A stretch of DNA of 32,481 nucleotides from Spirochaetales bacterium. GTDB taxonomy: Bacteria > Spirochaetota > Spirochaetia > SZUA-6 > JAFGRV01. The stretch covers positions 1 through 32,481 of the forward strand of contig JAFGHO010000102.1 of the NCBI GenBank assembly GCA_016930085.1. Reading direction: 5' to 3'. Of this stretch, positions 3,994 to 30,053 are shown piece after piece. Within the stretch, counting starts at the first letter, position 1, and each line of letters begins with the position of its first letter. The position numbers and the translations under genes are program-made. The notes beneath the pieces were generated by a model. The model was not told where the DNA came from. It saw only the letters and a program-made list of their open reading frames with translations, and ran no database searches.

Positions 3994-5202
3994 ATGACAA
4001 GAAAAAAAGTTGTGATTGTCGGCGCCGGAATAAGCGGTATGACCGTCGCCAGCAACCTTTCCAAAAGGGGAATAGTTACGATGCTAATCGATAAAAACCC
4101 ATATCCCGGCGGAGAGGCTGTTTTCTACGGCTGCAAGGCGACCGATTCATGTATGCGATGCGGAGTATGTCTTCTTCGCGATGCGCTGTGTGAATTAAAG
4201 GAGAACGATACAATGGCCATCTCGTTTTCCTCGACAGTCCGTTCAATAAAAAGACACCCCCCATCGGGCTATATCCTTGAAATCGAAGTATCGCGCAATT
4301 ATATCGATCCCCGGCAATGTATTGCATGCGGTCTTTGTCAACCTGTTTGTCCCGAAGATGCGATAAAAAAAATACCCGGCTGGACCTACTATATCGATTC
4401 ACATTGCACGGCTTGCGGTGAATGTGTCGACCGGTGTCCGGTCGGGGCCGTCAGTCTGGAAAACCGATGCACACGGATGAGTGTTCATGCCGATTCGATT
4501 GTCATTGCAACCGGTTTCGAACCCTATGATCCCGCACGTAATCTCAAATGGGGTTACGGCAGGAACCCGCAGGTGATTACGGCAACGGATCTGGAGCGAT
4601 GTTTGTATGATGAAAGATACCCCGGAGTTCATGTCAGCCGCATTGCATTTATCCAGTGTGTCGGTTCCAGAAATGTGACGGAGGGTGTTTCACAATGTTC
4701 GCGTATCTGTTGCGCATACGCCTTGCGCATGGCTAATAAATTAACCTATGACCGACCCGGGACGGCGGTCGATTTTTATTATATGGATATCCAGGGTTTC
4801 GGCAAACAGTTTCCGGATTTCATGGCGAACGTAAACGATTCCGTCTCTTTTATACGAAGCAGCCCGGTCAGTGTGGCAACAGAGGAGGGGGGGAAACCGA
4901 TCGTCAGGTTCGAATCCCCTGAGACGCATGCATGTATCGAAACCGCCTATGATCTTCTCGTGTTGTCACACGGTCTCTGCCCCCGGGATAATGCACCTAA
5001 TGTTGCGGAGCTTTTCGGTCTTGATCAGGATGTGAATGGATTTTTCAACGATTTCCCGGCTGACGGGGCCGCCTCTTTACGTTCCGGGATTTTTACAGCC
5101 GGCACATGCAGGGGGCCGATGCGCATCGATGAATGTATAACGGATGCAACGGCCGTTTCTCGGAAGATCTTTGCGTTTTTGGAAGGGGAAGCGGCCGGGT
5201 GA
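3994..5202 (+). CDS. HdrA/QmoA-like FAD and iron-sulfur protein
   Basis: A 402-residue soluble flavoprotein of the HdrA family, about the size of QmoA. It has an N-terminal FAD-binding VVIVGAGISG (7-16), an early Cys cluster CMRCGVC plus Cys66 (53-66), two ferredoxin-type [4Fe-4S] motifs (CIACGLCQPVCP at 109-120 and CTACGECVDRCP at 138-149), and the HdrA signature FIQCVGSRN ... CSRICC (219-240). It lacks the ~140-residue N-terminal domain and the C-terminal ferredoxin domain of full HdrA. It is first in the operon and its stop overlaps the next start by four bases (GTGA), implying translational coupling. With the next two genes it resembles a QmoA-QmoB unit in which the MvhD part of QmoB is separate. 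The role is probably electron transfer to or from the complex; its partner is inferred. Confidence 0.8.
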   Translation: MTRKKVVIVGAGISGMTVASNLSKRGIVTMLIDKNPYPGGEAVFYGCKATDSCMRCGVCLLRDALCELKENDTMAISFSSTVRSIKRHPPSGYILEIEVSRNYIDPRQCIACGLCQPVCPEDAIKKIPGWTYYIDSHCTACGECVDRCPVGAVSLENRCTRMSVHADSIVIATGFEPYDPARNLKWGYGRNPQVITATDLERCLYDERYPGVHVSRIAFIQCVGSRNVTEGVSQCSRICCAYALRMANKLTYDRPGTAVDFYYMDIQGFGKQFPDFMANVNDSVSFIRSSPVSVATEEGGKPIVRFESPETHACIETAYDLLVLSHGLCPRDNAPNVAELFGLDQDVNGFFNDFPADGAASLRSGIFTAGTCRGPMRIDECITDATAVSRKIFAFLEGEAAG

Positions 5203-6794
5203 AGAACAGCAAGGTAAGTATTTTCCTTTGTGATTTTTCTCTTTGCCTGAAAAATGGTCCTGATGTATATCGTATAAAAAAGGAATTGGAAAAGAATCGC
5301 CATGTCGGGGAAGTTATCGTCCTGAAAGCCCCGTGCAGGGAATCCGCCACGGCCGTTCCCGAAATAAGCGGGAACCGCCTTCTTATAGCCGGCTGCTCTT
5401 TTCTGCAAAAGTGTGGTGGCTTCGGACAACCCGGGAAGGTGATATCCGTCGATACATCTAATTTCATTATGATAGATATCAGAAACCTTGTTATGGGACT
5501 TTATTCGACAAAAAAAGAAAGAGAAAGCAACCTGATCGGGCAATTGCTCATGCATGCCGCCATCCTTGCGAATAAGCAGCCGGTAAAAAACGTGAATGTC
5601 CGGCCGTTTGATAAAATCCTCGTGTACGGAAGCGGGCTTTCCGGGTTGCTTGCCGCGCTTGACATACCCTCAACGACTACCCTGGATGTTATCGAAACAC
5701 CGGGAGAAACGGTTTCGCCGGGCTTTTTATGGGAAACGATGAACCATCCTTCGATAGTATATCGATTGAGAGAAAAGGTTTCAGAGAGGGGAATTATCGG
5801 TTTTATCCCGCGTGATGATGTAATGGGTCTTGAACGTGTTGAAAAGGGATTTATCCTGAAGAAAAAAGGGGGCGGCATTGTCGAATACGGGGCGATCATT
5901 TTCGCGCCTGAGCGCCGTGAAGGTGAAAACAATGGAGACGGGTCCCTCACCCTTTCCGGTCTCTATCTTCTTCTTGAAAAGAATGTCGTATGCCGGGGTA
6001 CAATGGTGTTCCTTCTTGAAAATGTCGAAACGACGAGCCCCGAGGTATATGGTGATGTCATGAGGGCGGCTCTCCACAGCAAGAAACGGGACAGGGGTGA
6101 AGTGATTGTTGTCTCGAATGATATCCATGTCGCGTTTCGGGGGGGAGAAGAACTTTATGATGAATGCAGAAAAGCGGGAGTCGTCTTTATCAGACCTTCA
6201 GGGGATTATGAGGCTCTCAGTGACGGAGGTTCGTTCAGGATATCGGGGATTGATGCGGGAACCGGAAGCAGGTTAACCCTGGATAGACCGGAGATCGTTG
6301 TCATCCCGCAGAAACCGGTACTTTCAGAGACCTCGCTGCATTTTGCGGCTATGGCACGTCTGAGTCTGCCGGGAAACCGGTATTCCCAGGCTGATTCCCT
6401 CAGTGCGATTCCTTCGGAAACAAACGTGAAGGGGGTGTTTGTCACGGGCGCGGCAAGGGAGAATCTGGGGTTTTCCGCGATGAGAGAGGACATCCACTCG
6501 TGTGTCTTTGCCGTTACCGCGTATCTGGCCGGACAGGCGGGGAATATCGAAGAACGCATTCCCCTGATCGATGCCGAGAAGTGCGTTCTGTGCCTTACCT
6601 GTATCAGGGTTTGTCCGTATAATGCTTTAGTAACCGATACGGAAAAGGGTATCGCGAAAATTATCGAAACCGCCTGCATGGCGTGCGGAATCTGTGTATC
6701 TGAATGTCCCGCCCGGGCGATGCAGATGAGGAACCTCACGACTACCGCGATCGATGAGGGTGTCGGGCTTCTTTATCCGAAAGGAACTGGTTGA
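5199..6794 (+). CDS. Degenerate HdrA/QmoB-like flavoprotein with C-terminal 2x[4Fe-4S]
   Basis: I choose the GTG at 5199, which overlaps the upstream stop by four bases and follows GGAAGGGGA, over the in-frame ATG at 5133. The product is 531 residues. The N-terminus (VSIFLCDFSLCLK) matches the start of full-length HdrA, where the usual text is a CRCG motif; here only Cys11 and Cys16 remain. ILVYGSGLSGLLAAL (140-154) is the dinucleotide-binding loop. The HdrA signature CxGSR ... CSxxCC is missing. Two ferredoxin motifs close the protein: CVLCLTCIRVCP (462-473) and CMACGICVSECP (493-504). Lacking the central Cys signature, it may have lost one Fe-S site and act as an electron conduit, as QmoB does beside QmoA. 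It abuts the next gene with no gap. Confidence 0.75.
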   Translation: MKNSKVSIFLCDFSLCLKNGPDVYRIKKELEKNRHVGEVIVLKAPCRESATAVPEISGNRLLIAGCSFLQKCGGFGQPGKVISVDTSNFIMIDIRNLVMGLYSTKKERESNLIGQLLMHAAILANKQPVKNVNVRPFDKILVYGSGLSGLLAALDIPSTTTLDVIETPGETVSPGFLWETMNHPSIVYRLREKVSERGIIGFIPRDDVMGLERVEKGFILKKKGGGIVEYGAIIFAPERREGENNGDGSLTLSGLYLLLEKNVVCRGTMVFLLENVETTSPEVYGDVMRAALHSKKRDRGEVIVVSNDIHVAFRGGEELYDECRKAGVVFIRPSGDYEALSDGGSFRISGIDAGTGSRLTLDRPEIVVIPQKPVLSETSLHFAAMARLSLPGNRYSQADSLSAIPSETNVKGVFVTGAARENLGFSAMREDIHSCVFAVTAYLAGQAGNIEERIPLIDAEKCVLCLTCIRVCPYNALVTDTEKGIAKIIETACMACGICVSECPARAMQMRNLTTTAIDEGVGLLYPKGTG

Positions 6795-7192: not shown

Positions 7193-8083
7193 ATGTCAGC
7201 GACAATTATTGACGGAAACAGGATTGCCGCCGGAATACGGACGGACCTGAAAACGGAAATCGACAATTTGAAAATTACCGGGGGTATCGTTCCCGGGCTT
7301 GCGGTTGTTCTTGTGGGTGAGGACCCGGCCTCCCGTGTGTATGTGCGTATGAAAAACAGGGCCTGCTCCGATATCGGTATATATTCCGAACAACATACCT
7401 TTGGCCGGGATATAACGGAAGCGGCACTGCTCGAAAAAATATCGGAATTGAATAGTGATAACAGGATTCACGGTATCCTCGTTCAGCTGCCCCTGCCCCC
7501 ACATATTGAAGAACAGAAGGTGATCGGGGCCATTCTCCCGGAAAAGGATGTCGACGGTTTTCATCCGGTCAATATGGGAAAACTACTCATCGGTATTGAC
7601 GGTTTCAAGCCGTGCACGCCGTACGGGGTACAGCAAATGCTCGTCCATGCCGGGATTCCCGTCGAGGGCGCACACGTCGTTGTCGTGGGCAGAAGTAATA
7701 TCGTGGGAAAACCGATTGCCGGCATCCTCGTTCAGAAACAAAAGCACGCAAACGCCACCGTAACACTCTGCCATTCCCGGACGAAAAATCTCGCCGGACT
7801 CACCAGGCAGGCGGACATTCTTATTGCCGCGATCGGAAAACCGGAGGCGATCACCGCCGATATGGTGAAAGAGGACGCGGTGGTCATCGATGTGGGAGTC
7901 AACCGGGTTGACGATCCGGGTTCGGAAAAGGGGTATAAGCTTGTCGGTGACGTCAAATTCGGGGAAGTCTCGCAAAAGTGCAGGGCCATATCGCCCGTTC
8001 CCGGCGGTGTCGGACCGATGACGATCACCATGCTTCTTTACAACACGGTACAATCGGCAAAGAACCATGCCGGGATCGAATAG
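7193..8083 (+). CDS. folD: Methylene-THF dehydrogenase / methenyl-THF cyclohydrolase (FolD)
   Basis: A 296-residue bifunctional enzyme interconverting methylene-THF, methenyl-THF and 10-formyl-THF using NAD(P). The key residues fall at the E. coli FolD numbers: Tyr50 and Lys54 (YVRMK), Gln98 (VQLPLPP) and Asp121 (DVDGFHP). The nucleotide-binding motif GRSNIVGKP and the C-terminal SPVPGGVGPMT are both intact. An AAGGAG ribosome site lies 6-7 nt before the ATG. Placed inside the electron-transfer operon and just before metV-metF, it supplies methylene-THF to the reductase, so two consecutive steps of the methyl branch are co-expressed. The cofactor preference (NAD or NADP) cannot be decided here. 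Confidence 0.97.
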   Translation: MSATIIDGNRIAAGIRTDLKTEIDNLKITGGIVPGLAVVLVGEDPASRVYVRMKNRACSDIGIYSEQHTFGRDITEAALLEKISELNSDNRIHGILVQLPLPPHIEEQKVIGAILPEKDVDGFHPVNMGKLLIGIDGFKPCTPYGVQQMLVHAGIPVEGAHVVVVGRSNIVGKPIAGILVQKQKHANATVTLCHSRTKNLAGLTRQADILIAAIGKPEAITADMVKEDAVVIDVGVNRVDDPGSEKGYKLVGDVKFGEVSQKCRAISPVPGGVGPMTITMLLYNTVQSAKNHAGIE

Positions 8084-8128: not shown

Positions 8129-8791
8129 ATGATTGTAGCGGAACAAAAACCCGTCGGGGAAATACTCGCCATGTTAGGGGCCGGCAAACGGATCCTGGTC
8201 GTCGGCTGCGACAGCTGCGTGACCGTTTGTCTTTCGGGCGGAGAAAAGGAAGTGAATGTGCTCTGCTCGGCACTCAGAATGTCCCAGAAGGGATTCAGCC
8301 GGATTACGGGCCGCACCGTAAAACGTCAGTGCGACAGGGAATTTCTCGAGGACATACGGAAGGACGCGGAGGAAAGCGATATACTGCTTTCGATGGCGTG
8401 CGGTGCCGGCTGCCAGATGTTGTCCGATTTTTTCGAGGGTATGATCGTGCTTCCCGCCCTCAATACCCTTTTTATGGGATCGAACGAAGGTGCCGGATAC
8501 TGGCTGGAACGCTGCCTCGGCTGCGGCGATTGCGTGCTGCATATAACAGGCGGTATTTGTCCCCGCGTGAGGTGCGCCAAAGGACTCATGAACGGTCCCT
8601 GCGGCGGATCCAAAGGCGGGAAGTGTGAAGTCGATCCCGAGCATCTCGAATGCGGATGGAATCTCATTTATCACAGGCTAAAGACCCTCGGTGCACTCGA
8701 CCGGATGATGGAGATACAACCGCCCCGCGACTGGTCCCGGTCCCATGAAGGGGGGCCGCGACGGGTGATAAGGGAGGATATCGCGCTATGA
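8129..8791 (+). CDS. metV: MetV, zinc/iron-sulfur partner of methylene-THF reductase
   Basis: A 220-residue cysteine-rich protein of the MTHFR C-terminal/MetV family, the obligatory partner of short bacterial MetF proteins in acetogens, where MetFV is a flavin enzyme carrying a MetV-bound [4Fe-4S] cluster. Fifteen cysteines are visible, including GCDSC (26-30), CGAGC (91-95), CLGCGDC (129-135), CPRVRC (144-149) and NGPCGGSKGGKC (155-166), the last being a family hallmark. A GAGGG site precedes the ATG. The stop overlaps the metF start by four bases (ATGA), as expected for two subunits made in equal amounts. MetV passes electrons from the Hdr/MvhD subunits to the FMN of MetF. Confidence 0.93.
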   Translation: MIVAEQKPVGEILAMLGAGKRILVVGCDSCVTVCLSGGEKEVNVLCSALRMSQKGFSRITGRTVKRQCDREFLEDIRKDAEESDILLSMACGAGCQMLSDFFEGMIVLPALNTLFMGSNEGAGYWLERCLGCGDCVLHITGGICPRVRCAKGLMNGPCGGSKGGKCEVDPEHLECGWNLIYHRLKTLGALDRMMEIQPPRDWSRSHEGGPRRVIREDIAL

Positions 8792-9741
8792 ACGTGAACA
8801 AGAACAAGAGCGGGCTTGAAAAACTTTTCGAAAAGGGTGAGTTTGTCGTGACCGCCGAATTGGGTCCGCCGAAAAGTGTCGATCCTTCCGTCATCGATGC
8901 CAAGGTGATCGCCCTGAAAGGGGCGGTCGATGCGGTCAATATTACGGACAATCAGGCCGCGATCGTGAGGATTTCCTCGATCGGAACGGGTATTTATGTG
9001 AAGAACGCCGGCATCGAGCCGATTATTCAGATGACCTGCCGCGACAGAAACCGGCTCGGCATCCAGGCGGATCTCCTCGGGGCTTCACTGAACGGGATAA
9101 AAAACCTGCTCTGCATTACCGGCGATCATCAGTCGTTGGGAAACCACCCCCGTGCCCGGTGCGTTTTTGATATCGATTCGATTCAACTCATCGGGATGGT
9201 GAGGGATATGCGTGAGAAAGGTGTGTTTCAGTGCGGAGAGGCGATCAGAAACGGAAAGCATGCCGATGTGCATGCCCCCGGTTTTTTCATCGGCGGAGCG
9301 GCTAATCCGTTCGCGGAGCCCCTCGAGTGGCGTGTCGATCGTTTACGGAAAAAGGTAAATGCCGGGGTCGAGTTTATCCAGACCCAATGTATCTATGATA
9401 TGGAGCGGTTTTCCCGATGGATGAAAGAGGTCACGGCACGCGGTCTGCATGGACAGGTGAAGATTTGCGCCGGTGTTTCTCCGCTCAAATCAGCCGGCGC
9501 GGCGGTATATATGAATGAAAAGGTCGCGGGGATTGTTATTCCGGATCACTGCATCGAACGGCTGAGAAAGGCGGACGATGCAAAAGCCGAGGGGTTGAAG
9601 ATATGTATCGAACAGATTCAACAGCTGATGGAGATGGAAGGGGTCGCGGGCGTCCATATTATCGCGATCGAATGGGAGACTGCCGTGAGAGGGATCGTGG
9701 AAGGCGCGGGGCTTTTACCCCGACCGGAAATGGAGGAATAA
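8788..9741 (+). CDS. metF: 5,10-methylenetetrahydrofolate reductase, catalytic subunit
   Basis: A 317-residue flavin-dependent TIM-barrel enzyme that reduces methylene-THF to methyl-THF, the last THF-bound step of the methyl branch of the Wood-Ljungdahl pathway, and reversible in methyl-group oxidation. Visible family landmarks are the N-terminal FVVTAELGPPKSVD (about 19-32), MTCRDRNR and LCITGDH (about 82-115), and the GVEFIQTQCIYD segment near 200, typical of the acetogen MetF type. The length fits the MetFV type, which needs MetV for electron input. The start is translationally coupled to metV. The next gene starts with no intervening base, so metV, metF and the HdrC fusion form a compact translational block. 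Confidence 0.95.
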   Translation: MNVNKNKSGLEKLFEKGEFVVTAELGPPKSVDPSVIDAKVIALKGAVDAVNITDNQAAIVRISSIGTGIYVKNAGIEPIIQMTCRDRNRLGIQADLLGASLNGIKNLLCITGDHQSLGNHPRARCVFDIDSIQLIGMVRDMREKGVFQCGEAIRNGKHADVHAPGFFIGGAANPFAEPLEWRVDRLRKKVNAGVEFIQTQCIYDMERFSRWMKEVTARGLHGQVKICAGVSPLKSAGAAVYMNEKVAGIVIPDHCIERLRKADDAKAEGLKICIEQIQQLMEMEGVAGVHIIAIEWETAVRGIVEGAGLLPRPEMEE

Positions 9742-10836
9742 GTGAACGGAGAAAGCATTAAAGCCGCATATGAAAAAGCCGCCAATATGCTTCGTGATAT
9801 GGACCTCGAGGAAGTATGCGGCAGGACAGGTGCGAAACGGAAGGGAAATATCCTCTCGCTGGATTATTTTAACGAAACTGTCGAGGTAGTGCTTCCGGAA
9901 ATAATATGCAGGGGTGAACATATTAGCGAGGTCGATGCACTTATTATCATTCATTATCTGATATCGACGGGAGCCGCTGAAACGAATGGCGAGTTTGTCG
10001 GATTCAAGGATCTGCCGGGCGGTATGTTCCATTACAACACCTTTGTAAAAGAAGGCCCCGGGCGTCTTTCCGAGATTTTTGCCGAAGAACACGGAAGAAT
10101 AGTGTCTGCTGCCGCCGGACTTGGCGGTGAAAAAGCCGCTTTCGGGGACGCGTCGGTGAAACTGAAAGTGTTTCCGCATGTGGAGATACTTGTTGTTCTC
10201 TACAGGGATGACGGTGATTTCCCGCAGGAAACCTATATGCTTTTCAGGGATGATATTATCAATTACCTGAGTCTGAAGGATATTTCGATGATGGCGGGTG
10301 TGATAACCGAACGGCTTAACACGCTGGAAAAATCGGCCCTCAAAACCGTCGACCTGATGCATACGGACAGGGATTTTAAAAACGAAATCGCCGCAAGGCC
10401 GGGCGCGGGATTTTTCAGGCGATGTTTTTCCTGTGGTACCTGTACCGCCTCGTGTCCGGTATCGGAGATCGATGAGCGTTTCAATCCGCGCCTGATTATA
10501 CGGCAATGTCTTTTGGGGCAGCGCGAAGAGATCCTCTCTTCAAAGGAATTGTGGTTCTGTGTCCAGTGCTATACCTGTTATGCGAGGTGCCCGCAGGATG
10601 TCCGCTTTACGGATGTGATCGCGGTTCTCAGGGAAATTGCGATAGAGGAGGGGTACGCACCGGAGGTGATGGAGGAAAAGGCAAAGAAAATCGGTGACCT
10701 CGCGCAGCGTCTCAGGCACGGATTGACCGAATATGCCTGGTTTTGCGCGACGGGGAACAAACAGAAAGATCTGCAGGAAAATCTTCCCGAAAAGCTGATG
10801 GATCGGCTTGAAAAGGGATTGAAGGAATTGGAATAA
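9742..10836 (+). CDS. DUF3786-HdrC fusion protein
   Basis: A 364-residue protein starting at GTG 9742, preceded by GGAGGAA. Residues about 5-205 match my memory of DUF3786: a helical region with IIHYLISTGA (69-78), then GFKDLPGGMFHYN (87-99). I cannot name a biochemical function for that domain. Residues about 220-330 are HdrC-like: two [4Fe-4S] motifs, CFSCGTCTASCP (228-239) and CVQCYTCYARCP (273-284). In methanogens HdrC passes electrons between HdrA and HdrB. No HdrB with CCG motifs occurs anywhere in this window, so the DUF3786 part or MetV may be the acceptor. The gene sits between metF and the giant HdrA, which fits a linker role joining the reductase to the bifurcating core. Confidence 0.85.
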   Translation: MNGESIKAAYEKAANMLRDMDLEEVCGRTGAKRKGNILSLDYFNETVEVVLPEIICRGEHISEVDALIIIHYLISTGAAETNGEFVGFKDLPGGMFHYNTFVKEGPGRLSEIFAEEHGRIVSAAAGLGGEKAAFGDASVKLKVFPHVEILVVLYRDDGDFPQETYMLFRDDIINYLSLKDISMMAGVITERLNTLEKSALKTVDLMHTDRDFKNEIAARPGAGFFRRCFSCGTCTASCPVSEIDERFNPRLIIRQCLLGQREEILSSKELWFCVQCYTCYARCPQDVRFTDVIAVLREIAIEEGYAPEVMEEKAKKIGDLAQRLRHGLTEYAWFCATGNKQKDLQENLPEKLMDRLEKGLKELE

Positions 10837-10838: not shown

Positions 10839-13800
10839 ATGGATAACGGCATGAGCGGAACGGTTCTGGTTGTCGGCGGGGGAATCGGCGGTATACAGGC
10901 ATCCCTGGACCTCGCGGAATCGGGATTCAGGGTTTATCTCATCGAGAAATCGCCTTCGATCGGCGGAACCATGGCACAGCTCGACAAGACCTTCCCGACA
11001 AACGATTGCGCCATGTGTATCATGTCGCCGAAACTTGTCGATTGCGCAAGACATCTCAACATAACGCTTTTAACCTGTTCCGAAGTCGTCTCATGCGGGG
11101 GCAGAGCGGGTGACTTTATCGTCACGGTAAAACGCCGCGCACGTTATGTGGATGAAACCAGATGCACGGGGTGCGCCGAATGCGAGGGGCACTGTCCCGT
11201 CGTCGTACCGAATGAGTTCGATATCGATATGTCGCTTCGCCATGCGATATACCGTCCGTTTCCTCAGGCGTCCCCGAATGTCTTCGCCATCGAAAAAAAC
11301 GGCATTCCACCCTGCAGGGACGCGTGCCCGGCGGGCTGCAATGTCCAGGGGTATATCGCCCTGATCGGCAGCGGCAGGTTCGGGGAAGCCCTTGATGTCA
11401 TACGGAAAACGATACCGCTTCCCGGGATATGCGGGCGTGTCTGCGGGTATTGCGAAGCGATGTGCAACAGGGCCTCGATCGACGAGGCATTGCGCATCCG
11501 CCTGCTCAAACGCTTTGCCGCCGATTACGAACGAAAAGCCCGGATCGCCGGCCGGAAGGGGAAAAAAGCCGCCGTCACACGAACGATATACATCCGTCAT
11601 GAAAAAGGGACTGGTGGCGTGGAAGACGCCGATAGCGGCGTGGAAGACGCCGATAACGGCGTGAAAATCGCCATTATCGGATCGGGACCCGCCGGTCTTA
11701 CCGCCGCCCGTGATTGCGCGGTCATGGGATATACCCCGGTGGTGTTCGAAGCCATGAAAAAACCCGGGGGGATGCTCAGGTACGGAATACCTGGTTACCG
11801 TTTGCCGGAAGATATCCTTGATTACGAAATCGACATGATTATCGGGGAAGGTGTCGAAATCAGAACGGAAACACCGATAGGGATCGGTCTCACCGTCGCG
11901 CAATTGCAGAAACGGGGCTTTCAAGCCGTGTTTATCGCAATCGGAACCCAAAAAAGCAACAGACTCATGATAAAGGGGGAAGACCTCGCCGGAGTGTTGC
12001 CGGGAATCCGGTTCCTCGAGCAGCGGATCGCGGGCGGGATATCACTTGATATACGCGGAAAGATCGTCGCGGTTATCGGGGGCGGAAACACGGCGCTGGA
12101 CGCAGCCCGTACCGCTTTGAGGCTGGGCGCGCGGCGGGTTATGGTCATCTACCGGAGGACGCGTGAACAGATGCCGGTGAGCGCGGAAGAATATGAAGCG
12201 GCAGTGGAGGAGGGAGTCGAATTTTATTTTCTTTTAAGTCCGATGGAAATTGCGGGGAGAAAGGGCAGGGTGACGGGCGTCCTCTTGCGGCATATGAAAT
12301 TGGGAACCCCGGATGCGTCCGGAAGAAGAAGACCCGTTCCGGTTCCCGATTCGACCGCTTTTTTCGATGCGGATATCGTTATCCCATCACCGGGGCAGGG
12401 AGTCGATGAAACATGGCCTGGTGCGGCATGCGAAAACCTCGAAATGAAAGGGAATCTGATACGGATCGATCCGCTTACGCTCGAAACAAACCTGGAGGGG
12501 GTTTTTGCGGGCGGCGATGCCGCGGGTAGCGGCGGTTATGTCGTGCACGCGATCGCACAAGGACACGAGGCGGCGATTTCCATCGACCGGTATATCCGCG
12601 GTGAAGATATGCGGGCGGGGAGAAAGAAGAAACGGGGGCCTGTCGCCGGTATACCCCCGAGGTATATCGAAAAGAAGGCGGCGATGAAACCGGATAGGCT
12701 TCCGGGCCGCGAACGGCTGATGTCTTTCGACGAAGTCGAAAAAGGACTGACGGAGGAAGAGGCGGTCGAAGAAGCAAAGCGATGTCTCAATTGTTCGATA
12801 TGTTCGGAATGCGGCCAATGTGAGTTGCATTGCTCGGTTAAAGCGATTGATTATTCGCAGAAAGACACGTATGAGGATATCCGTGTGGGTGCGATTCTCC
12901 TCGCCCCCGGCTGCGAGCGGGTCGACCCCGGGGGGTTGTATCGGCTCGGTTTCGGCATATATCCGGATGTGATCACGGGTATCCATTTCGAACGGATGTT
13001 GTCGTCTTCCGGACCGTTTGCCGGGCATATCAGAAGGCCGTCGGACGGAATGACACCGGAAAAAATCGCGTTTATCCAGTGCGCCGGTTCACGGGATACC
13101 GTTGCAGGAAACGAGATCTGTTCGTCCGTCTGCTGTATGTACGCGATCAAGGAGGCGGTGATCGCGAAGGAGCATGATCCGGAGATTCAGCCGGTTATTT
13201 TTTATATGGATATCCGGGCTGTCGGCAAGGATTTCGAACGCTACTACGAGCGGGCAAAGAGCGAATACAACGTACGCTTTGTCCGGTCGCGGGTGTCCGA
13301 CGTATTGAAACGGCCGGGTTCCGGACGGCTTGAGGTACGGTATGAGGGGGGGGACGGGAAGGCGAGCGAAGAAGATGTCGACCTCGTCGTCCTTTCGACC
13401 GGATTTACCGGAGGCGGGCGTCTGCGCGATATCGGCGGGGTTTTCGGTCTTCCGGTCAACAGATTCGGTTATCTTGCCGCCGATCCGCTCGCCGCAGTCG
13501 AAACGAGAATCCCCGGTCTGTTTCTCTGCGGACCGGCCCAGGAACCGAAGGATATTCCGGAGACGATCATGCAGGCCAACGCTGCCTCGGCGGCTGCCGC
13601 CGAAATGCTTGCCGGGGCGCGGTGGCATGACGTCGTTGAAAAGGAATATCCGCCCGAACGTGACATCGGCGGAGAGGGAGTGAAGATCGGGGTGTTCGTA
13701 TGCCGGTGCGGCATTAATATCGCCGCCACGGTGGATGTGAGTGCGGTTTTAGGGTATGCGGAAACACTTCCCGGAGTGGTATTTGCGGAAGAAAACCTCT

Positions 13801-15356
13801 ATACCTGTTCGCAGGATACCCAGGACCATATGAAGGAGATGATCCGAGCGCACGGTTTGAACAGAATCGTCGTCGCCTCGTGTACCCCGCGGACCCATGA
13901 ACCACTCTTTCAGGAGACGATTCGCGAGGCTGGATTGAACAGGCACCTTTTCTCCATGGCTAATATACGCGACCAGTGTTCGTGGATTCACATGAAGGAG
14001 CCGGCGTACGCGACGGAAAAAGCAAAAGATCTATTACGGATGGCGGTCGCGAGGATCGGGCTCGTCGAACCTCTCCCCCGGATACCGCTTCCCGTCATAC
14101 GGGAGGTATTGGTGGTCGGCGGAGGACCTGCCGGGATGTCGGCTGCCCTTTCCCTTTCGCGCCAGGGATTCCCCGTGCATCTCGTCGAGAAGGAGACGGT
14201 GCTGGGCGGGAATCTGCGGAATATCGGCTCGACACTTGAAGGAACGTCCGTAAGGGACCTTCTCGATGATATGATCGGGGCAATTGAAAGCAATCCACTC
14301 GTTACCGTACATTCTGGCTTCGTCGTCGAGGAGGTCGGGGGGTTCATCGGCAATTATACAACGAGAATCAGATCGAGATACGGCGAAGAGTTTATCGAGG
14401 TGCGTCACGGTGTCGCCGTTATCGCAACGGGTGCCGTCGAGTCAAAGCCCGAAGGGTATAATTACGGGAGCGACGGGAGGATAAAAACCGGCCTCGAGTT
14501 TGAATCATACCTGGCCGCATGCGACGACAATTCCCTTCCGCGCAACGCGGTTTTTATCCAGTGTGTGGGATCGCGCGAATCAGGGCATATGTATTGTTCC
14601 CGAATCTGCTGCAAACACACGGTCAAGAATGCCCTTGCGCTAAAGCGGCGAAATCCTGACGCTTCCGTTTTCGTCCTTTACCGTGATGTCAGAACGTACG
14701 GGTTCTCCGAGTATGATTACCGGGTCGCGCGGGATGCGGGGATCGTCTTTATCCGGTATGAGGCGGCCGTAAAGCCGGCGGTACTCGCCGGGAAGGATAT
14801 TCTTGTCATCGAAGTGCGTGAGGCGATGACGGAAAACTCGATCAGGATTCCTGCGGACGCCGTCATTCTGGCGGCGCGAATCGATCCGGGGTATGATAAC
14901 GAAACAATGTCGCGGCTGTTCAAGGTTCCGCTGACCGCGGACGGATTTTTTCTCGAAGCCCATGTAAAACTCCGGCCTGTTGATTTTGCCACCGAAGGTG
15001 TTTTTCTTGCCGGTACGGCCCACAGTCCGAAAACCACTGCCGAAAGCATTTCTCAGGGGAGGGCCGCCGCGGCGCGGGCGGCGATCATTATCAGCAAAGA
15101 TACCTATGAAGCGGAGGCAACGATTGCGGCCCTCAACGAGGACCTCTGCGACGGGTGCGGCATTTGTGTGGGGGTGTGCTCGTATAATGCGATCGAGCTT
15201 GTCGACCTCGAAAACGATAAAAAAATCGTCAAACTGAACGAGGCGATGTGCAAGGGGTGCGGGGGGTGCGTCGCGGCGTGTCCGAGCGGCGCCATGGAGC
15301 AAAAGGGGTTCAGGAATAGCCAGATTCTGGCGGAGATCGATGCCGCACTCCAGTAG
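10839..15356 (+). CDS. 1505-residue tandem HdrA with inserted GltD/NfnB-type NAD(P)H module (HdrL-like)
   Basis: One uninterrupted frame encodes three modules. HdrA-1 begins with FAD motif VVGGGIGG (11-18), TNDCAMC (54-60) and an Fe-S segment CTGCAECEGHC (109-119), and resumes at about 650-925 with CLNCSICSECGQC (649-661) and FIQCAGSRD ... CSSVCC (745-766). Inserted at about 158-600 is a GltD/NfnB-like unit: the Cys-rich N-domain (CRDACPAGC, CGRVCGYCEAMC), AIIGSGPAG (278-286), the second nucleotide site VIGGGNTALDAARTALRLGA (412-431), and GVFAGGDAAGSGG (554-566). HdrA-2 (about 948-1505) is complete: VCRCGIN (954-960), VVGGGPAG (1092-1099), FIQCVGSRE ... CSRICC (1239-1258), and two ferredoxin motifs (from Cys1437 and Cys1471). 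Giant HdrL-type proteins are known in some sulfate reducers. Inference: two flavin centres plus an NAD(P)H site permit bifurcation among NAD(P)H, H2, ferredoxin and methylene-THF. The start is poorly marked; ATG 10851 is an alternative. Confidence 0.9.
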   Translation: MDNGMSGTVLVVGGGIGGIQASLDLAESGFRVYLIEKSPSIGGTMAQLDKTFPTNDCAMCIMSPKLVDCARHLNITLLTCSEVVSCGGRAGDFIVTVKRRARYVDETRCTGCAECEGHCPVVVPNEFDIDMSLRHAIYRPFPQASPNVFAIEKNGIPPCRDACPAGCNVQGYIALIGSGRFGEALDVIRKTIPLPGICGRVCGYCEAMCNRASIDEALRIRLLKRFAADYERKARIAGRKGKKAAVTRTIYIRHEKGTGGVEDADSGVEDADNGVKIAIIGSGPAGLTAARDCAVMGYTPVVFEAMKKPGGMLRYGIPGYRLPEDILDYEIDMIIGEGVEIRTETPIGIGLTVAQLQKRGFQAVFIAIGTQKSNRLMIKGEDLAGVLPGIRFLEQRIAGGISLDIRGKIVAVIGGGNTALDAARTALRLGARRVMVIYRRTREQMPVSAEEYEAAVEEGVEFYFLLSPMEIAGRKGRVTGVLLRHMKLGTPDASGRRRPVPVPDSTAFFDADIVIPSPGQGVDETWPGAACENLEMKGNLIRIDPLTLETNLEGVFAGGDAAGSGGYVVHAIAQGHEAAISIDRYIRGEDMRAGRKKKRGPVAGIPPRYIEKKAAMKPDRLPGRERLMSFDEVEKGLTEEEAVEEAKRCLNCSICSECGQCELHCSVKAIDYSQKDTYEDIRVGAILLAPGCERVDPGGLYRLGFGIYPDVITGIHFERMLSSSGPFAGHIRRPSDGMTPEKIAFIQCAGSRDTVAGNEICSSVCCMYAIKEAVIAKEHDPEIQPVIFYMDIRAVGKDFERYYERAKSEYNVRFVRSRVSDVLKRPGSGRLEVRYEGGDGKASEEDVDLVVLSTGFTGGGRLRDIGGVFGLPVNRFGYLAADPLAAVETRIPGLFLCGPAQEPKDIPETIMQANAASAAAAEMLAGARWHDVVEKEYPPERDIGGEGVKIGVFVCRCGINIAATVDVSAVLGYAETLPGVVFAEENLYTCSQDTQDHMKEMIRAHGLNRIVVASCTPRTHEPLFQETIREAGLNRHLFSMANIRDQCSWIHMKEPAYATEKAKDLLRMAVARIGLVEPLPRIPLPVIREVLVVGGGPAGMSAALSLSRQGFPVHLVEKETVLGGNLRNIGSTLEGTSVRDLLDDMIGAIESNPLVTVHSGFVVEEVGGFIGNYTTRIRSRYGEEFIEVRHGVAVIATGAVESKPEGYNYGSDGRIKTGLEFESYLAACDDNSLPRNAVFIQCVGSRESGHMYCSRICCKHTVKNALALKRRNPDASVFVLYRDVRTYGFSEYDYRVARDAGIVFIRYEAAVKPAVLAGKDILVIEVREAMTENSIRIPADAVILAARIDPGYDNETMSRLFKVPLTADGFFLEAHVKLRPVDFATEGVFLAGTAHSPKTTAESISQGRAAAARAAIIISKDTYEAEATIAALNEDLCDGCGICVGVCSYNAIELVDLENDKKIVKLNEAMCKGCGGCVAACPSGAMEQKGFRNSQILAEIDAALQ
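11616..11657 (+). repeat. In-frame 21-bp tandem duplication inside the giant HdrA gene
   Basis: Two 21-bp units (11616-11636 and 11637-11657) differ at one base and are followed by a third partial GGCGTG. They encode GVEDADS and GVEDADN, residues 260-273, an acidic linker just before the NAD(P)-binding motif of the GltD-like module. Each unit also contains GGCGT and ACGCC as a small inverted repeat. It looks like a recent slippage expansion of a flexible interdomain linker. Confidence 0.9.
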
Positions 15357-15391
15357 CGGGGGAGATGTTTCCGTTTTGGAAGGACCGGATA

Positions 15392-15850
15392 ATGAGTGAA
15401 CCGTTTATACCCAAAATTATCGTTTTTTGCTGCAACTGGTGCGCCTATGCGGGGGCGGATCTCGCGGGGGTAAGCAGATTGCAGATAAAACCCCATTTCA
15501 GGATTATCCGGACACTCTGTTCCGCCCGTGTCGATCCGGAGTTTATCATGTATGCCTTTCGCAAAGGCGCTGACGGGGTAATGGTGGCCGGGTGCCACCC
15601 GGGCGACTGTCATTATATCGGCGGGAATTACCGGACGCGGCGGCGAATGGCCCTTCTGAAAAGCATGCTGAAACAGTTCGGTCTGAATACGGACCGTTTC
15701 CGACTTGAATGGGTGTCCGCGTCCGAGGGGGAGAAATTCGCACGCGTGGTCAATGATTTTATCGACCGGATCGTCGAACTGGGACCGAGTCCGTTCGGGA
15801 AAATAAACAACAGAGATCGCCGTAGAAAAGATGAACCAATATCGGGGTAA
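15392..15850 (+). CDS. mvhD: MvhD, [2Fe-2S] electron-transfer subunit
   Basis: A canonical MvhD of 152 residues. I prefer the ATG at 15392 (GGAAGGA about 8 nt upstream) over the ATG at 15365, which would add nine residues and has its purine run directly against the codon. All family cysteines are present: CCNWC (13-17), Cys43, GCHPGDC (67-73) followed by HYIGGNY. MvhD accepts electrons from the hydrogenase small subunit and passes them to HdrA. Its position directly between the giant HdrA and mvhG fits that role exactly. Unlike the first MvhD of the operon (6795-7175), nothing is degenerate here. Confidence 0.93.
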   Translation: MSEPFIPKIIVFCCNWCAYAGADLAGVSRLQIKPHFRIIRTLCSARVDPEFIMYAFRKGADGVMVAGCHPGDCHYIGGNYRTRRRMALLKSMLKQFGLNTDRFRLEWVSASEGEKFARVVNDFIDRIVELGPSPFGKINNRDRRRKDEPISG

Positions 15851-15975
15851 TGCCGCCGGTAACGGGCGTGTATCCCGATGCCGCAGGGGACGCCATGGAA
15901 AACGGCATGACGGGTTCCGGATATTTTCGGATCACCCCCGGCGGCCGTGATTATATATATAGGGAGGAATACGAT
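15851..15975 (+). other. Structured 125-nt gap between mvhD and mvhG
   Basis: This is the longest gap in the operon. GCCGCCGG (15852-15859) pairs perfectly with CCGGCGGC (15938-15945). Inside are ATGCCG/CGGCAT (15878-15883 / 15903-15908) and GGCGT/ACGCC (15865-15869 / 15890-15894); these inner pairs cannot all form at once. The region is also open in the mvhG frame back to an ATG at 15850, so a 42-residue N-terminal extension of MvhG is formally possible, but the strong ribosome site at 15961-15968 argues against it. Confidence 0.5.
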
Positions 15976-16986
15976 ATGGCGGAGAAGATTACGATAGCAC
16001 TCAAACGCGGGGCATCATGCGTCGGGTGTGATATCGCGGTCGTCAACTTTAATGAACATCTTTTTACCCTTTTAACTTATGCAGATATCGTTTTCGCACC
16101 GACGCTTCTTGATGTAAAATACGAGGACCTCAAGAATTTGCCTGACGGGTCGGTGACCATCGGTTTTTATCATGGCGCCGTGAGAAACTCGGATAATGAA
16201 GAAATGGCAAAGGTGATGAGGGATAAATGCCGCTTTCTTATCGCCTACGGTGCGTGCGCGCATATGGGCGGAATTCCGGGCCTCGCGAACGCCACGACAC
16301 GGAAGAAGATTCTGGAACAGGTATACAAAAAAACAGTATCGACGGTGAACCCGGAAGGGACAATGCCCATGGAAACGTATACCGACGAGGCGGGCCATGA
16401 CCTTACGCTTCCGGCCTTTTACGACCGGGTCTTTGCCCTCGACGATGTTGTGGACGTCGATTACTATGTCCCCGCCTGCCCCCCGACACACGATATAAAT
16501 ATGCAGATTCTTTCTCTTGTCAGGGAGTTTGTCGAAAAGGGGAAGCCCCTTCCCCCCAAAGGATCGGTGATCGCATCGGTAAAAACCCTCTGCGATGAAT
16601 GCGGACGGACAAGATCCCGGACGATATCGGTTGCGAGGTTCCGCAGGCTTCAGGATCTGAAACTCGATGAAGATAAGTGCTTTCTCGAACAGGGGATCGT
16701 CTGTCTGGGACCGGCAACCCGAGCGGGTTGCGGGGCACCCTGTACGGCGGTCAATGTCCCGTGCAGGGGGTGTATGGGACCGACATCCGGCGTCATGGAA
16801 CAGGGGGCATCCATGCTTTCCGCGATCGCTTCGATTATCAGCATATCGGATGATGAAGATAAGCTTTCGGAAGAACAGATCGAACGGCTTATGGATCAGA
16901 TTATCGATCCACTCGGCTGTTTTTACCGGTTTTCCCTCCCCAAATCCCAGCTGGGGCGGGTGGTCGAAGACGTAAAAGAGGAGTAA
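15976..16986 (+). CDS. mvhG: [NiFe] hydrogenase small subunit, MvhG-type
   Basis: The ATG at 15976 follows GGGAGGAA (15962-15969) and yields 336 residues beginning just before the proximal-cluster motif. That cluster is complete: CVGC (15-18), YGACAHMGG (Cys94) and PACPP (Cys168). Further cysteines for two more clusters are CDEC (206-209), Cys235, Cys243, Cys252, Cys256 and CRGC (263-266). There is no twin-arginine signal, so the enzyme is cytoplasmic, as in group 3 hydrogenases (Mvh/Frh-like, F420-non-reducing or methyl-viologen-reducing type). It carries electrons from the Ni-Fe site in MvhA to MvhD and on to the Hdr flavins. Confidence 0.92.
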   Translation: MAEKITIALKRGASCVGCDIAVVNFNEHLFTLLTYADIVFAPTLLDVKYEDLKNLPDGSVTIGFYHGAVRNSDNEEMAKVMRDKCRFLIAYGACAHMGGIPGLANATTRKKILEQVYKKTVSTVNPEGTMPMETYTDEAGHDLTLPAFYDRVFALDDVVDVDYYVPACPPTHDINMQILSLVREFVEKGKPLPPKGSVIASVKTLCDECGRTRSRTISVARFRRLQDLKLDEDKCFLEQGIVCLGPATRAGCGAPCTAVNVPCRGCMGPTSGVMEQGASMLSAIASIISISDDEDKLSEEQIERLMDQIIDPLGCFYRFSLPKSQLGRVVEDVKEE

Positions 16987-16990: not shown

Positions 16991-18490
16991 ATGCCTGAAA
17001 TCCGGGATACGACACATAAAACAAAAAAACGCGTCATTCATATCGAGCCGGTGACGCGGCTCGAGGGCCACGCGAAAATCGAAATCTTTCTGGATGACAA
17101 AGGGGATGTCGAGGAAACCTACTTCCAGGTAGTTGAATTGAGGGGATTCGAGGAGTTCTGCAAAGGCCGCCCTGCTGAGGAAATGCCGAGAATCGTGACC
17201 AGGCTTTGCGGTGTCTGTCCATGGCCCCATCATATCGCATCGAGTACCGCCCTGGACGAGATTGTCTCCGCTCCGCCTCCGGTGACCGCCGTAAAAATCA
17301 GGGAACTCGGGTATTGCGCCCACATCCTTGAAAGCCACCTCGAGCATATCTACGCCCTCGGTCCCGCCCCCGATTTTATCGTGGGACCTGATGCGGATCC
17401 CGCGAAGCGGAATGTGCTTGGCGTCATCGAGGTGTTGGGGACGGAGGTCGGGAAAAAGGTCGTCGTTCACAGGGGGTACGCGGTTGAAATAGAGGATATT
17501 ATCGGCGGGAAATCGACGCATCCGGTTTTCAGTATTCCGGGAGGTGTTTCCCGGCCGCTGAAACGGGATGAAGCAGCGAGGATCAGGGACCTTGCGGACA
17601 AGCTTGTCTCCTTTTGCGAGTATACCCTCACAGTCGTCTTTGACGTCATCCTGTCGAACAGCCGGTACATGGATATCATCCTCGACGAAACCCTCTATTA
17701 TCACGATTCGTATCATATGGGTATGGTCGACGGCAATAATAAACTTACATTTTACAGCGGCGACCTCCGTGTTATGGACCAGAAAGGAAAGGAAGTCTTC
17801 AGATTTTCCGGTCGCGCTTATTCCGATTATATCGCGGAGCAGCCGGTTCCCTGGTCGTATCTCAAGTTCCCGTACCTGAAAAAAATAGGCTATAACGGCC
17901 TTGTCGACGGACCTGAAAGCGGTCTTTACCGGGTGGCCCCCCTTTCGCGGTTGAATGTGGCGGACGGTATGACAACACCGAAGGCGCAGGAGGCTTATGA
18001 AAAATTCTTTGCGACACTCGGGGAAAAGCCGGTTCAGAACTCCCTCGCTTTCCATTGGGCCCGGGCAATCGAAGCCCTTTATGCGGCCGAGAGACTCAGG
18101 GAACTCGCTCATGACGAGGACATCTTCGGTGATGAATACAGAACAATCGCCGGAGAGGTCGCCGGGGAGGGGATCGGGGTGATCGAAGCCCCGCGGGGTA
18201 CGCTTTTCCATCATTACAAAACAGACGGCAACGCGATAATCACCGATGTCAATCTGCTTGTAGCAAGCGCGCAGAACTATGGGGCGATGAATATCGATAT
18301 CCGGAATGTCGCGAAAGCCCTGATAAAAAAGGGGGAGATCGGCGGCGGCATTCTCAACATGGTTGAAATGGCATTCAGATCATACGATCCTTGTTTTTCA
18401 TGCGCCACGCACGCCGCAATCGGCAGGATGCCTATGGAAATCGTCGTAATAAGCCATGAAGGGGGGGTAATACGAACGATAAGCAGGTAA
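16991..18490 (+). CDS. mvhA: [NiFe] hydrogenase large subunit, MvhA-type
   Basis: A 499-residue catalytic subunit that oxidises H2 or reduces protons. Both Ni-binding motifs are intact: RLCGVCPWPHH (71-81, Cys73 and Cys76) and DPCFSCATH (466-474, Cys468 and Cys471). The typical early motif EPVTRLEGH (19-27) is also present. A 25-residue tail follows His474, the expected cleavable C-terminal extension, consistent with the protease encoded next. The sequence type is group 3 (cytoplasmic, bidirectional), closest to Mvh/Vhu enzymes that pair with Hdr; the subgroup (3a or 3c) needs a tree. GAGGAG about 8 nt upstream supports the start. Intact ligands indicate an active hydrogenase, not a Ni-free relict as in Complex I. 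Confidence 0.95.
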   Translation: MPEIRDTTHKTKKRVIHIEPVTRLEGHAKIEIFLDDKGDVEETYFQVVELRGFEEFCKGRPAEEMPRIVTRLCGVCPWPHHIASSTALDEIVSAPPPVTAVKIRELGYCAHILESHLEHIYALGPAPDFIVGPDADPAKRNVLGVIEVLGTEVGKKVVVHRGYAVEIEDIIGGKSTHPVFSIPGGVSRPLKRDEAARIRDLADKLVSFCEYTLTVVFDVILSNSRYMDIILDETLYYHDSYHMGMVDGNNKLTFYSGDLRVMDQKGKEVFRFSGRAYSDYIAEQPVPWSYLKFPYLKKIGYNGLVDGPESGLYRVAPLSRLNVADGMTTPKAQEAYEKFFATLGEKPVQNSLAFHWARAIEALYAAERLRELAHDEDIFGDEYRTIAGEVAGEGIGVIEAPRGTLFHHYKTDGNAIITDVNLLVASAQNYGAMNIDIRNVAKALIKKGEIGGGILNMVEMAFRSYDPCFSCATHAAIGRMPMEIVVISHEGGVIRTISR

Positions 18491-18510: not shown

Positions 18511-19017
18511 ATGGGGAATCCCGTTCTGAATGATGATTGTATCGGGGATTTGATCGGAAAGCGTCTCAGACGGCAATTTCACGGGAGGGATGAGGTGGTT
18601 GTCGAAGCGGTAGAAGGGTCCCCCTTTTCTTTCATGGTGAAATTATCGCAGTATGTGAAAGTGCTTCTCGTGGACGCAGCCTTAGCCGGCCGGGCGGTCG
18701 GCGAGGTCATTCTGCTGCAAAAGGATGATATTCTCGATCACGCGCATACCTTTTACCTTCACGGGATGAATTGTGCGGAAGCGATCATGATCGCAGAGAA
18801 ATTCGGTATCAGGTTTCCGGAGCGGTTTCTGCTTGCCGGGATCGAGATAGGGGGGGAAGGTCCCTCACGTTTTTATCCCGAAGCCGGGCGTAACGTCTTT
18901 GGCGGATCGCTTTCACATGAGCTCGAAAGGATGTTTCCCGTTATTTATAAAAAAATCCTTCATGCGGCCTTGAGTTTTTTCCCTCTTGACCCGGTCTTGA
19001 GTGAAGTAGTTCGATAA
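18511..19017 (+). CDS. Hydrogenase maturation protease (HycI/HyaD family)
   Basis: A 168-residue endopeptidase that trims the C-terminal peptide of the hydrogenase large subunit after Ni insertion. Family landmarks are MGNPVLNDDCIG at the N-terminus, LLVDAAL (about 52-58, metal-binding Asp) and FYLHGMNCAEA (about 80-90, His ligand). The family normally has five to eight residues before GNP; here the first ATG falls directly before it. The in-frame upstream sequence (18460-18510) encodes a matching lead-in (GFIGY) but offers no standard start codon, and there is no clear ribosome site. The true start may use a rare codon, or translation may depend on coupling to mvhA, 20 bp upstream. It is the last gene of the operon. 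Confidence 0.85.
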   Translation: MGNPVLNDDCIGDLIGKRLRRQFHGRDEVVVEAVEGSPFSFMVKLSQYVKVLLVDAALAGRAVGEVILLQKDDILDHAHTFYLHGMNCAEAIMIAEKFGIRFPERFLLAGIEIGGEGPSRFYPEAGRNVFGGSLSHELERMFPVIYKKILHAALSFFPLDPVLSEVVR

Positions 19018-24026: not shown

Positions 24027-25616
24027 TCAATCAATCCCTTTATACTCGAACCAGTCGAAATCGGCATGATTGGCACTTTGTTTTCCGCCCCCGGATGCAT
24101 ACATGCCGATATACGCGCCGACAAACCCGCCGGCTTTATCCGTAGAGAGTATGCGGCCGTCGACCTCCCGTGCAAGCGGGGTTTCTTCATCTTCGGAGGT
24201 GCCGTAGTAGAATCCGTAATCCTGTCCCCTCGCTTGAACGGAAAGATACAGCCGTCCCGGGGGGGCGGCGAAGGAATACTCGGCAAGCATTTTTTCCTCC
24301 CCATTGTTGCATTGGGTAAGCCGCAATATATCCTTTCCGTTTTCTTTTACAAGGCAGTACAGGAAATGATAGCGGTTATTCTGTTGCAGAAGAAACCCGG
24401 CGGCCTCCCCCTCGATGTCAGGCGTAAATTCCACGGCAGCGGCCGCCCTGAAATTGATATGCTGCTGGCGCCTGCCGACAAAAGCGGGATTGCCGTATTC
24501 ACTCGCCTTATCCGGCTTGAGCCGCAGCCGCAGATACCCCTTTTTTTCGGAAAGACTGAAAAATCCATCACGCGGTGTCCGTATAAAGTTCCAGCAAAGC
24601 CGGAGTTCGGGGTTGTCGAAATCATCCCTTGCAGGTAACGCCGGAGAGGATGAGGGAGGAAGATCCGGTACCGGGTATGAAGCCTCGATTTTACCTGTTC
24701 CCGGACACACGACGGGCCAGCCATCCTCCCATCTGACCGGGACAAGGAAGGTTTCCCTTCCGAGGTTTCTGTAATACCCGCCGTACGGCCGGGAGGCCAG
24801 ACATACCATCCACCACTCGCCGTTTTGGGTCTCGATAAGATCGGCATGACCGGTATTGACGATCGGGTAATCGCGTCCAAGTTGCCGGTGGGTGAGGATG
24901 GGGTTTGCGGGATTTCCCTTGTAGGGCCCGGTAATGTTCGAACTGCGCGCGATAGTGACCGAATGGTGATAATCGGTCCCCCCTTCCGCGATCATAAGGT
25001 AATAATACCCGTCTATCCGGTACAGGTGCGGGCCTTCCGGCCAGATGACATCCCGCATGGCGCCCCGCCAGAGTCCGTGGTCCTGACCGGTCAGGGTCAT
25101 GGTTTTGAGGTCGAGTTCCCGCAGCCATATTTCCCAGTTTCCGTGGTACCGTTCACCTTCGGGCACGGGCCGTGTTCCCGTATAGTATGCTTTGCCGTCG
25201 TCGTCAAAGAAGAGGGAGGGATCGATGCCGGGCGCGTCGGGCAGCCTGAATGGATCCGACCAGGGGCCGGAGGGATCTTCGGCGGTGACGATAAAATTAC
25301 CGTTTTCTCGATTATTGTTCACATTGGTGGTGATCATGTAAAAAAGCCCGTTATGATAGCGAATGGTAGGGGCGTAGATTCCTTTTGACTGATCGAAACC
25401 GTGCAGCGCAAGCTGGGAAGGGCGGTCCAGGACATGGCCGATCTGTTCCCAGTGAACGAGATCCCTGCTGTGAAAAATCGGGACACCGGGGAAATAAGCG
25501 AAGGTCGATGTGACGAGGTAATAATCTTCGTTCACACGGCATATCGAAGGATCCGGATAAAATCCGGGTAGGATCGGATTGGTGAAGCATGAATCATTGG
25601 TTTTGCTTTTCTTCAT
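24027..25616 (-). CDS. GH43 beta-xylosidase / alpha-L-arabinofuranosidase
   Basis: A 529-residue glycoside hydrolase with no signal peptide, so it acts on imported oligosaccharides in the cytoplasm. The N-terminal five-bladed propeller (about 1-320) begins NPILPGFYPDPS with catalytic base Asp22. Asp132 (GIDPSLFFDDDG) is the pKa modulator and Glu194 (WPEGPHLY) the acid. The C-terminal half (about 350-527) is a beta-sandwich typical of two-domain GH43 xylosidases (DDFDNPELRLCWNFIRTP; GFVGAYIGMYASG). The likely substrate is xylo-oligosaccharide, with possible arabinose removal. It stands downstream of the GH67 gene and has its own putative promoter. AAGGAG about 11 nt upstream supports the start. 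Confidence 0.93.
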   Translation of the reverse strand: MKKSKTNDSCFTNPILPGFYPDPSICRVNEDYYLVTSTFAYFPGVPIFHSRDLVHWEQIGHVLDRPSQLALHGFDQSKGIYAPTIRYHNGLFYMITTNVNNNRENGNFIVTAEDPSGPWSDPFRLPDAPGIDPSLFFDDDGKAYYTGTRPVPEGERYHGNWEIWLRELDLKTMTLTGQDHGLWRGAMRDVIWPEGPHLYRIDGYYYLMIAEGGTDYHHSVTIARSSNITGPYKGNPANPILTHRQLGRDYPIVNTGHADLIETQNGEWWMVCLASRPYGGYYRNLGRETFLVPVRWEDGWPVVCPGTGKIEASYPVPDLPPSSSPALPARDDFDNPELRLCWNFIRTPRDGFFSLSEKKGYLRLRLKPDKASEYGNPAFVGRRQQHINFRAAAAVEFTPDIEGEAAGFLLQQNNRYHFLYCLVKENGKDILRLTQCNNGEEKMLAEYSFAAPPGRLYLSVQARGQDYGFYYGTSEDEETPLAREVDGRILSTDKAGGFVGAYIGMYASGGGKQSANHADFDWFEYKGID

Positions 25617-25717
25617 TATATTCTTACTCCTTTATCAAATGATAACCTCTTTCACGTTTGTCGAAACGGATTGAGGTCTTTTTCGTATACGCGTTTTCCC
25701 AAGCGGCTTCCAGTCAC

Positions 25718-25745
25718 AGGATACACGTCTATAGTTCTTTGTCAA
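25718..25745 (-). promoter_or_regulatory. Putative promoter of the GH43 gene
   Basis: On the minus strand a perfect TTGACA (25740-25745) is followed by a 16-bp spacer and TATCCT (25718-25723, four of six matches). Transcription would start near 25711, giving a leader of about 95 nt before the GH43 ATG. Confidence 0.45.
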
Positions 25746-25778
25746 GAGATAACCCGAACTCCGATTTCCGCGTAATAC

Positions 25779-25788
25779 GACAATTGTC
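25779..25788. promoter_or_regulatory. Palindrome upstream of the GH43 promoter, possible operator
   Basis: GACAATTGTC is a perfect 10-bp palindrome with TACG and CGTA flanks that are complementary when shifted by one base. It sits about 34 bp upstream of the putative -35. A regulator-binding site is possible, but a 10-bp palindrome in 280 bp can occur by chance. Confidence 0.3.
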
Positions 25789-25896
25789 CGTATACCGTTG
25801 AGAAAACATTGGAGATTTCCTGAGATATTCCCCATGAATCAGCGAATTTCTATATCTCCTTTAATAATATCATGTCGATTTTCACGGACGTGAGCT

Positions 25897-30044: not shown

Positions 30045-30053
30045 GGAGAAGCC

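Follow-up and report, generated by a model that had tools for sequence, protein, structure and literature searches.

A DUF3786–HdrC fusion in an HdrB-less MetVF operon of a Spirochaetales bacterium

Introduction

The electron donor of methylene-THF reductase complexes and the way these complexes couple energy are still debated. We describe here an operon in a 32,481-nt stretch of Spirochaetales DNA (contig JAFGHO010000102.1; 'the window' below, and G000 for its genome) that combines a methylene-THF reductase, Hdr proteins and a [NiFe] hydrogenase, and we compare it with described systems that share parts of this gene set.

In HdrCBA-MvhD-MetVF of Moorella thermoacetica and Sporomusa ovata (PMC9430772), MetV, MetF, HdrC, HdrA and MvhD are likewise encoded in one operon. 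The window's HdrA carries a GltD-like domain, and the Moorella HdrA is also very large (PMC9430772). Unlike these operons, that of the window lacks HdrB, contains a QmoA/QmoB-like pair and a second FlpD, adds an MvhG-MvhA hydrogenase and FolD, and encodes an HdrC that bears a DUF3786 domain. QmoABC has no HdrB subunit: its QmoA and QmoB are flavoproteins of the HdrA type, the latter ending in an MvhD-like domain, and QmoC includes an HdrC-like part (PMC4911364, PMC10504309). In domain content only, the window resembles this complex, with two HdrA-like proteins, an FlpD/MvhD module and an HdrC-like protein in the absence of HdrB. However, its FlpD is a separate gene rather than a fusion to the QmoB-like protein, its HdrC lacks the C-terminal membrane domain of QmoC, and its partners are MetVF and Mvh hydrogenase, with no aprBA nearby and no apr genes among the scanned genes of the window. 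The methanogen HdrABC-MvhADG complex (PDB 5odc, 8rvu) is alike in the sequence and fold of HdrC and in having HdrA, MvhA, MvhG and MvhD, but the window lacks HdrB and its CCG clusters, with MetVF taking the place of heterodisulfide on the substrate side.

DUF3786 (PF12654) usually occurs on its own, as a protein of some 210 residues, and its fusion to HdrC was seen in two genomes only. A full-text literature search found no papers on its function, and NCBIfam holds no family matching it.

Results

An HdrC fused to DUF3786 directly after metF

The operon runs in the order HdrA402, HdrA553, FlpD, FolD, MetV, MetF, DUF3786-HdrC, HdrA1505, MvhD, MvhG, MvhA, HycI (Table 1). The true start of HdrA553 is probably later than the ORF start at 5133, since that start overlaps the preceding gene.

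Table 1. Operon genes of the window and domains of the fusion protein
Feature	Coordinates	Strand	Basis
QmoA-like / HdrA-like flavoprotein, 402 aa (HdrA402), FAD-type Rossmann and 4Fe-4S	3994..5202	+	domain/profile searches
QmoB-like / HdrA-like protein, 553 aa (HdrA553), C-terminal ferredoxin dicluster	5133..6794	+	
FlpD/MvhD-like protein, 126 aa	6795..7175	+	domain type is the one fused to QmoB in Qmo complexes
FolD, methylene-THF dehydrogenase/cyclohydrolase	7193..8083	+	
MetV (DUF5981 C-terminal domain)	8129..8791	+	
MetF, methylene-THF reductase	8788..9741	+	
DUF3786-HdrC fusion protein, 364 aa	9742..10836	+	domain searches; matching architecture in G396
DUF3786 domain (PF12654), residues 21-190	9802..10311	+	Pfam; AlphaFold2 model mean pLDDT 96
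HdrC domain, two CxxCxxCxxxC [4Fe-4S] motifs	10357..10833	+	profiles, structural alignment, motif check
HdrA, 1505 aa, internal GltD/NfnB-like pyridine nucleotide-disulfide oxidoreductase domain	10839..15356	+	
MvhD (FlpD)	15365..15850	+	
MvhG, [NiFe] hydrogenase small subunit	15850..16986	+	
MvhA, [NiFe] hydrogenase large subunit	16991..18490	+	
HycI-type hydrogenase maturation protease	18511..19017	+	

The initial annotation had described an HdrC with an N-terminal DUF3786 domain, encoded directly after metF, and the observation of such a fusion in an HdrB-less operon is confirmed as real. Its ORF has a GTG start and begins directly past the metF stop. The N-terminal part matches PF12654 at E 3.8e-33 (115 bits against a Pfam cut-off of 27) and covers profile positions 1-175 of 176. 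The C-terminal part matches the HdrC profile TIGR03290 at E 1.1e-27, but its 96.8 bits fall under the NCBIfam equivalog cut-off of 160, so we class it as HdrC-type and not as the equivalog of methanogens. It also matches the NCBIfam QmoC profile (1e-19, under the full-length cut-off), over profile positions 2-107 of 360 only. Solved HdrC chains are its best structural matches, with residues 204-364 superposing on them at Z 8-9 (Foldseek, VIA-align). Both CxxCxxCxxxC motifs are unbroken, and the HdrC half stops after 159 residues. A scan of genome contigs with the full-length fusion as query returned no relatives. A 359-aa protein of identical architecture, with 51% identity, is encoded in G396, a genome of the same family; the fusion is therefore no sequencing artefact.

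The AlphaFold2 model of DUF3786 is of very high confidence (pTM 0.91) and shows a mixed helix-strand fold. No convincing PDB fold relative of the isolated model was found with Foldseek or VIA-align, where the best match, BamC (Z 5.9 over 105 residues), was tied with AMPK regulatory domains; viral matches to the model did not fall below E 0.06, and the DUF3786 profile gave only chance matches to PDB sequences. In the family alignment, the most conserved parts are a GDEEFPP strand-turn motif (DDGDFPQ in the window) and an LPGGxFY loop, and no conserved cysteine cluster motif is present. In this respect DUF3786 resembles a binding or scaffold domain more than a redox carrier, and the lack of a cysteine cluster would argue against an electron-conducting substitute for HdrB.

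HdrB is not detected, and a QmoAB-like trio accompanies its loss

No HdrB is encoded in the window, as first reported from the window itself, and this can be extended to the genome: a search of all 135 contigs (5.36 Mb, 96% complete) for the CCG domain (PF02754) returned nothing at E 0.001, and the identical search was positive in 12 of 14 control genomes. A CCG protein is likewise missing from G394, G395, G396 and G212.

The HdrB-less operon, HdrA402-HdrA553-FlpD-MetV-MetF-HdrC-HdrA-MvhD, occurs in twelve genomes including that of the window, with some gene pairs fused or cut by contig ends. The other eleven (G393, G394, G396, G400, G402, G405, G410, G413, G415, G423 and G434) belong to the same taxonomic order or class; none encodes HdrB in the operon, and in all of them HdrC is free, at roughly 155-190 residues, with the open frame of G413 continuing beyond the HdrC part. 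An apparent fused homologue with internal stops in G393 proved to be an unfused 178-aa HdrC. At this G393 locus (L052 1-1040), HdrC is followed directly by MvhD, without the large HdrA that lies between them in other operon copies.

The HdrA402/HdrA553-like pair with its small FlpD is a feature of the HdrB-less operons, the pair being fused in G410 and G405 and, in G413 and G402, truncated or left unlabelled in part. It is absent from all three HdrB-containing operons (G020, G158, G417). A QmoAB-like trio, assigned from domain architecture and published descriptions, is swapped for HdrB. In the HdrC tree, the HdrB-less proteins form one branch apart from the HdrB-linked HdrCs of these three genomes, with support of 100/100. 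HdrB-linked HdrCs of the phylum (L102 1226-1894, L091) carry a long C-terminal tail, FHRxFLxSIExYGR, which the HdrB-less clade lacks; the idea that the tail forms an HdrB interface was set aside, since the alignment with solved methanogen HdrCs does not extend over this part.

The gene order in G020 and G158 is HdrC, HdrB, HdrA, MetV, MetF, a free DUF3786 gene and CooC. Since DUF3786 here stands beside HdrB, and HdrB-less operons exist without DUF3786, the loss of HdrB is not tied to DUF3786.

DUF3786 follows the acetyl-CoA pathway

Across 393 genomes of the same phylum, DUF3786 is present in 24 of the 28 that are ACS-positive (a strong match to the acetyl-CoA synthase family PF03598) and in 6 of the 365 that are ACS-negative (Fisher p 8e-29, uncorrected for ancestry). 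Within the ACS-positive set it is found in 16 of 19 genomes with MetV and in 8 of 9 without; the latter count rules out MetFV as its general docking partner. Where MetV is present and ACS absent, DUF3786 occurs in 6 of 24 genomes, five of which are 60-88% complete, the sixth being that of the window.

Scanning GTDB genomes with a peptide pattern gave 542 relatives, of which the best 80 belong for the most part to former Deltaproteobacteria, Bacillota, Chloroflexota and Spirochaetes. Downstream of DUF3786, the most frequent neighbour is CooC, the next gene on that side at 20 loci; RACo, MetF, AcsE and FolD are found repeatedly as the gene just upstream. Adjoining cooC, RACo, metF, acsE or folD genes are also seen in Sporomusa, Desulfobacterota and Chloroflexota, as in the FchA-FolD-DUF3786-CooC-Fhs-CooS-AcsB-AcsC-RACo order of Sporomusa ovata and the Chloroflexota loci in which a free DUF3786 gene directly follows metF. 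When neighbours were labelled with a small reference set, an acetyl-CoA-pathway gene or CooC could be recognised within 7 ORFs of DUF3786 at only 40 of 118 loci. The link is therefore stronger at the genome level than in the neighbourhood; Hdr genes lie near in only 11 of the 118. The connection to C1 metabolism is thus supported by neighbours in several phyla, and it is wider than the initial annotation had proposed.

Eleven loci of former Deltaproteobacteria (L155, L162, L168 and similar) have DUF3786 directly after a ribulose-phosphate 3-epimerase gene and no obvious acetyl-CoA-pathway gene. G212, which is ACS-positive and lacks both a CCG protein and MetV, has five DUF3786 matches, representing several paralogues. 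One of these proteins, of 355 aa (L058 9532-10596), was ruled out as an HdrC fusion: its N-terminal extension of 150 residues matches no Pfam family.

Acetyl-CoA pathway genes of the window's genome

No acetyl-CoA synthase or CO dehydrogenase was detected in the whole genome of the window, the CFeSP match is weak only, and formate-THF ligase is present. The family members G393, G394 and G396 have ACS. The absence could reflect a real loss or a single missing contig; one contig could suffice because these genes cluster in relatives.

Elsewhere in the window (24027-31818), genes for a GH43 xylosidase and a GH67 alpha-glucuronidase adjoin those for a LacI regulator, a corrinoid protein, a protein with an activation domain of the methionine-synthase type, and a methyltransferase of the URO-D family. 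This region could be involved in demethylation of 4-O-methylglucuronate (from xylan), supplying methyl groups to the MetVF operon.

Origin of the fusion

The fusion is seen in two genomes of one family. In G396 it occupies a second locus (contig C351), besides an operon with free HdrC, and is followed directly by HycI, with hdrA and mvh genes missing; its HdrC half sits on a long branch (0.75 against 0.15 for the window). The corresponding locus of G394, recognised by a divergent PilZ gene and the genes past HycI, retains just FolD, DUF3786 and HycI and has no met, hdr or mvh genes, which indicates that the domain can persist alone. The DUF3786 parts of the window, G396 and G394 group as a single clade with support of 99. 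On contig C333 of G405, the operon that encodes the closest HdrC homologue (77%) also contains an unfused DUF3786 gene, three genes away, an arrangement suggesting that the association of DUF3786 with the operon may predate the fusion. Probably, DUF3786 entered the operon in this family, then joined HdrC, and can outlast decay of the operon.

Discussion

With moderate confidence, we favour a joint explanation in which the fusion is a lineage-specific joining of two modules with separate histories, an HdrC from a clade that works without HdrB and a DUF3786 that serves as a tether, with the QmoAB-like pair in the HdrB position. Within a MetVF methylene-THF reductase that is linked to a hydrogenase, the HdrC half would act as a wire of two clusters, most likely conducting electrons between the large HdrA, itself supplied by MvhADG, and the QmoA/QmoB-like pair with MetV and MetF. 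The likely electron path would run from H2 through MvhAG, MvhD, HdrA, HdrC, the QmoAB-like pair and MetV to MetF. The QmoAB-like pair, not DUF3786, would thereby take the position that HdrB has in Moorella/Sporomusa-type complexes. DUF3786 itself most likely serves the acetyl-CoA (Wood-Ljungdahl) pathway of bacteria in an accessory or tethering capacity, its partners being suggested by co-occurrence and gene adjacency rather than physical binding, and in fused form it would most likely tether the Hdr-MetVF machine to methyl-branch enzymes or help to assemble the two together. Against this explanation count the modest neighbourhood signal (40 of 118 loci) and the presence of DUF3786 in the window's own genome, where neither ACS nor CODH was detected, a gap for which one missing contig could account.

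The initial annotation had proposed that DUF3786 docks HdrC onto MetFV and replaces HdrB as the adaptor. The position of the fusion directly after metF, the genome-wide lack of HdrB and the free DUF3786 genes that directly follow metF in G020, G158 and Chloroflexota loci are consistent with this proposal, and the C1 link that it implied is borne out by ACS co-occurrence and by gene neighbours. The HdrB-replacement role, however, is contradicted by relatives: eleven other HdrB-less operons manage with an HdrC unfused to DUF3786, and in G020 and G158 the domain follows metF in the company of HdrB. Together with its presence in nearly all ACS-positive genomes without MetV, this makes the proposal as a whole improbable, although DUF3786 may possibly dock on MetFV in this one fusion. 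An HdrB might also be present in the organism and have been missed, the assembly being incomplete and divided into many contigs, but the same-family genomes G394, G395 and G396 also lack a CCG protein and none of the twelve genomes has HdrB in this operon, and we consider such an oversight very improbable.

Two further readings concern what the domain does. DUF3786 could help to mature or activate CODH/ACS or the corrinoid protein, acting with CooC or RACo, with the fused HdrC giving electrons. Its most frequent downstream neighbour CooC, the recurrent RACo upstream and a genome-level distribution that tracks ACS rather than MetV all point this way, but the window's genome keeps the fusion while appearing to lack ACS and CODH, and a conserved cysteine cluster motif is missing from the domain itself; this reading is unlikely, if the strongest of the alternatives. 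Slightly less likely still is a neutral fusion, in which DUF3786 was brought along into the operon and became fused to HdrC with no functional link between the halves. Occurrence in just two genomes, the long-branched HdrC half of G396 at a locus without hdrA and mvh, and the G394 locus that keeps DUF3786 and misses the HdrC half would fit such an accident, but the unfused DUF3786 in the G405 operon of the closest HdrC homologue speaks for an association older than the fusion.

Beyond the favoured explanation of the fusion, there is about an even chance that DUF3786 is a conserved but unrecognised accessory component of the bacterial acetyl-CoA pathway and that the window encodes a further type of methylene-THF reductase, with a QmoAB-like module for HdrB and a [NiFe] hydrogenase in the operon. 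If this is true, methylene-THF could be reduced directly at the expense of H2, or the oxidation of methyl groups could yield H2. The HdrB-less, QmoAB-containing operon broadens the known range of methylene-THF reductase complexes, and the tight co-occurrence with ACS makes DUF3786 a concrete candidate for a missing accessory factor in one of the major anaerobic routes of CO2 fixation.
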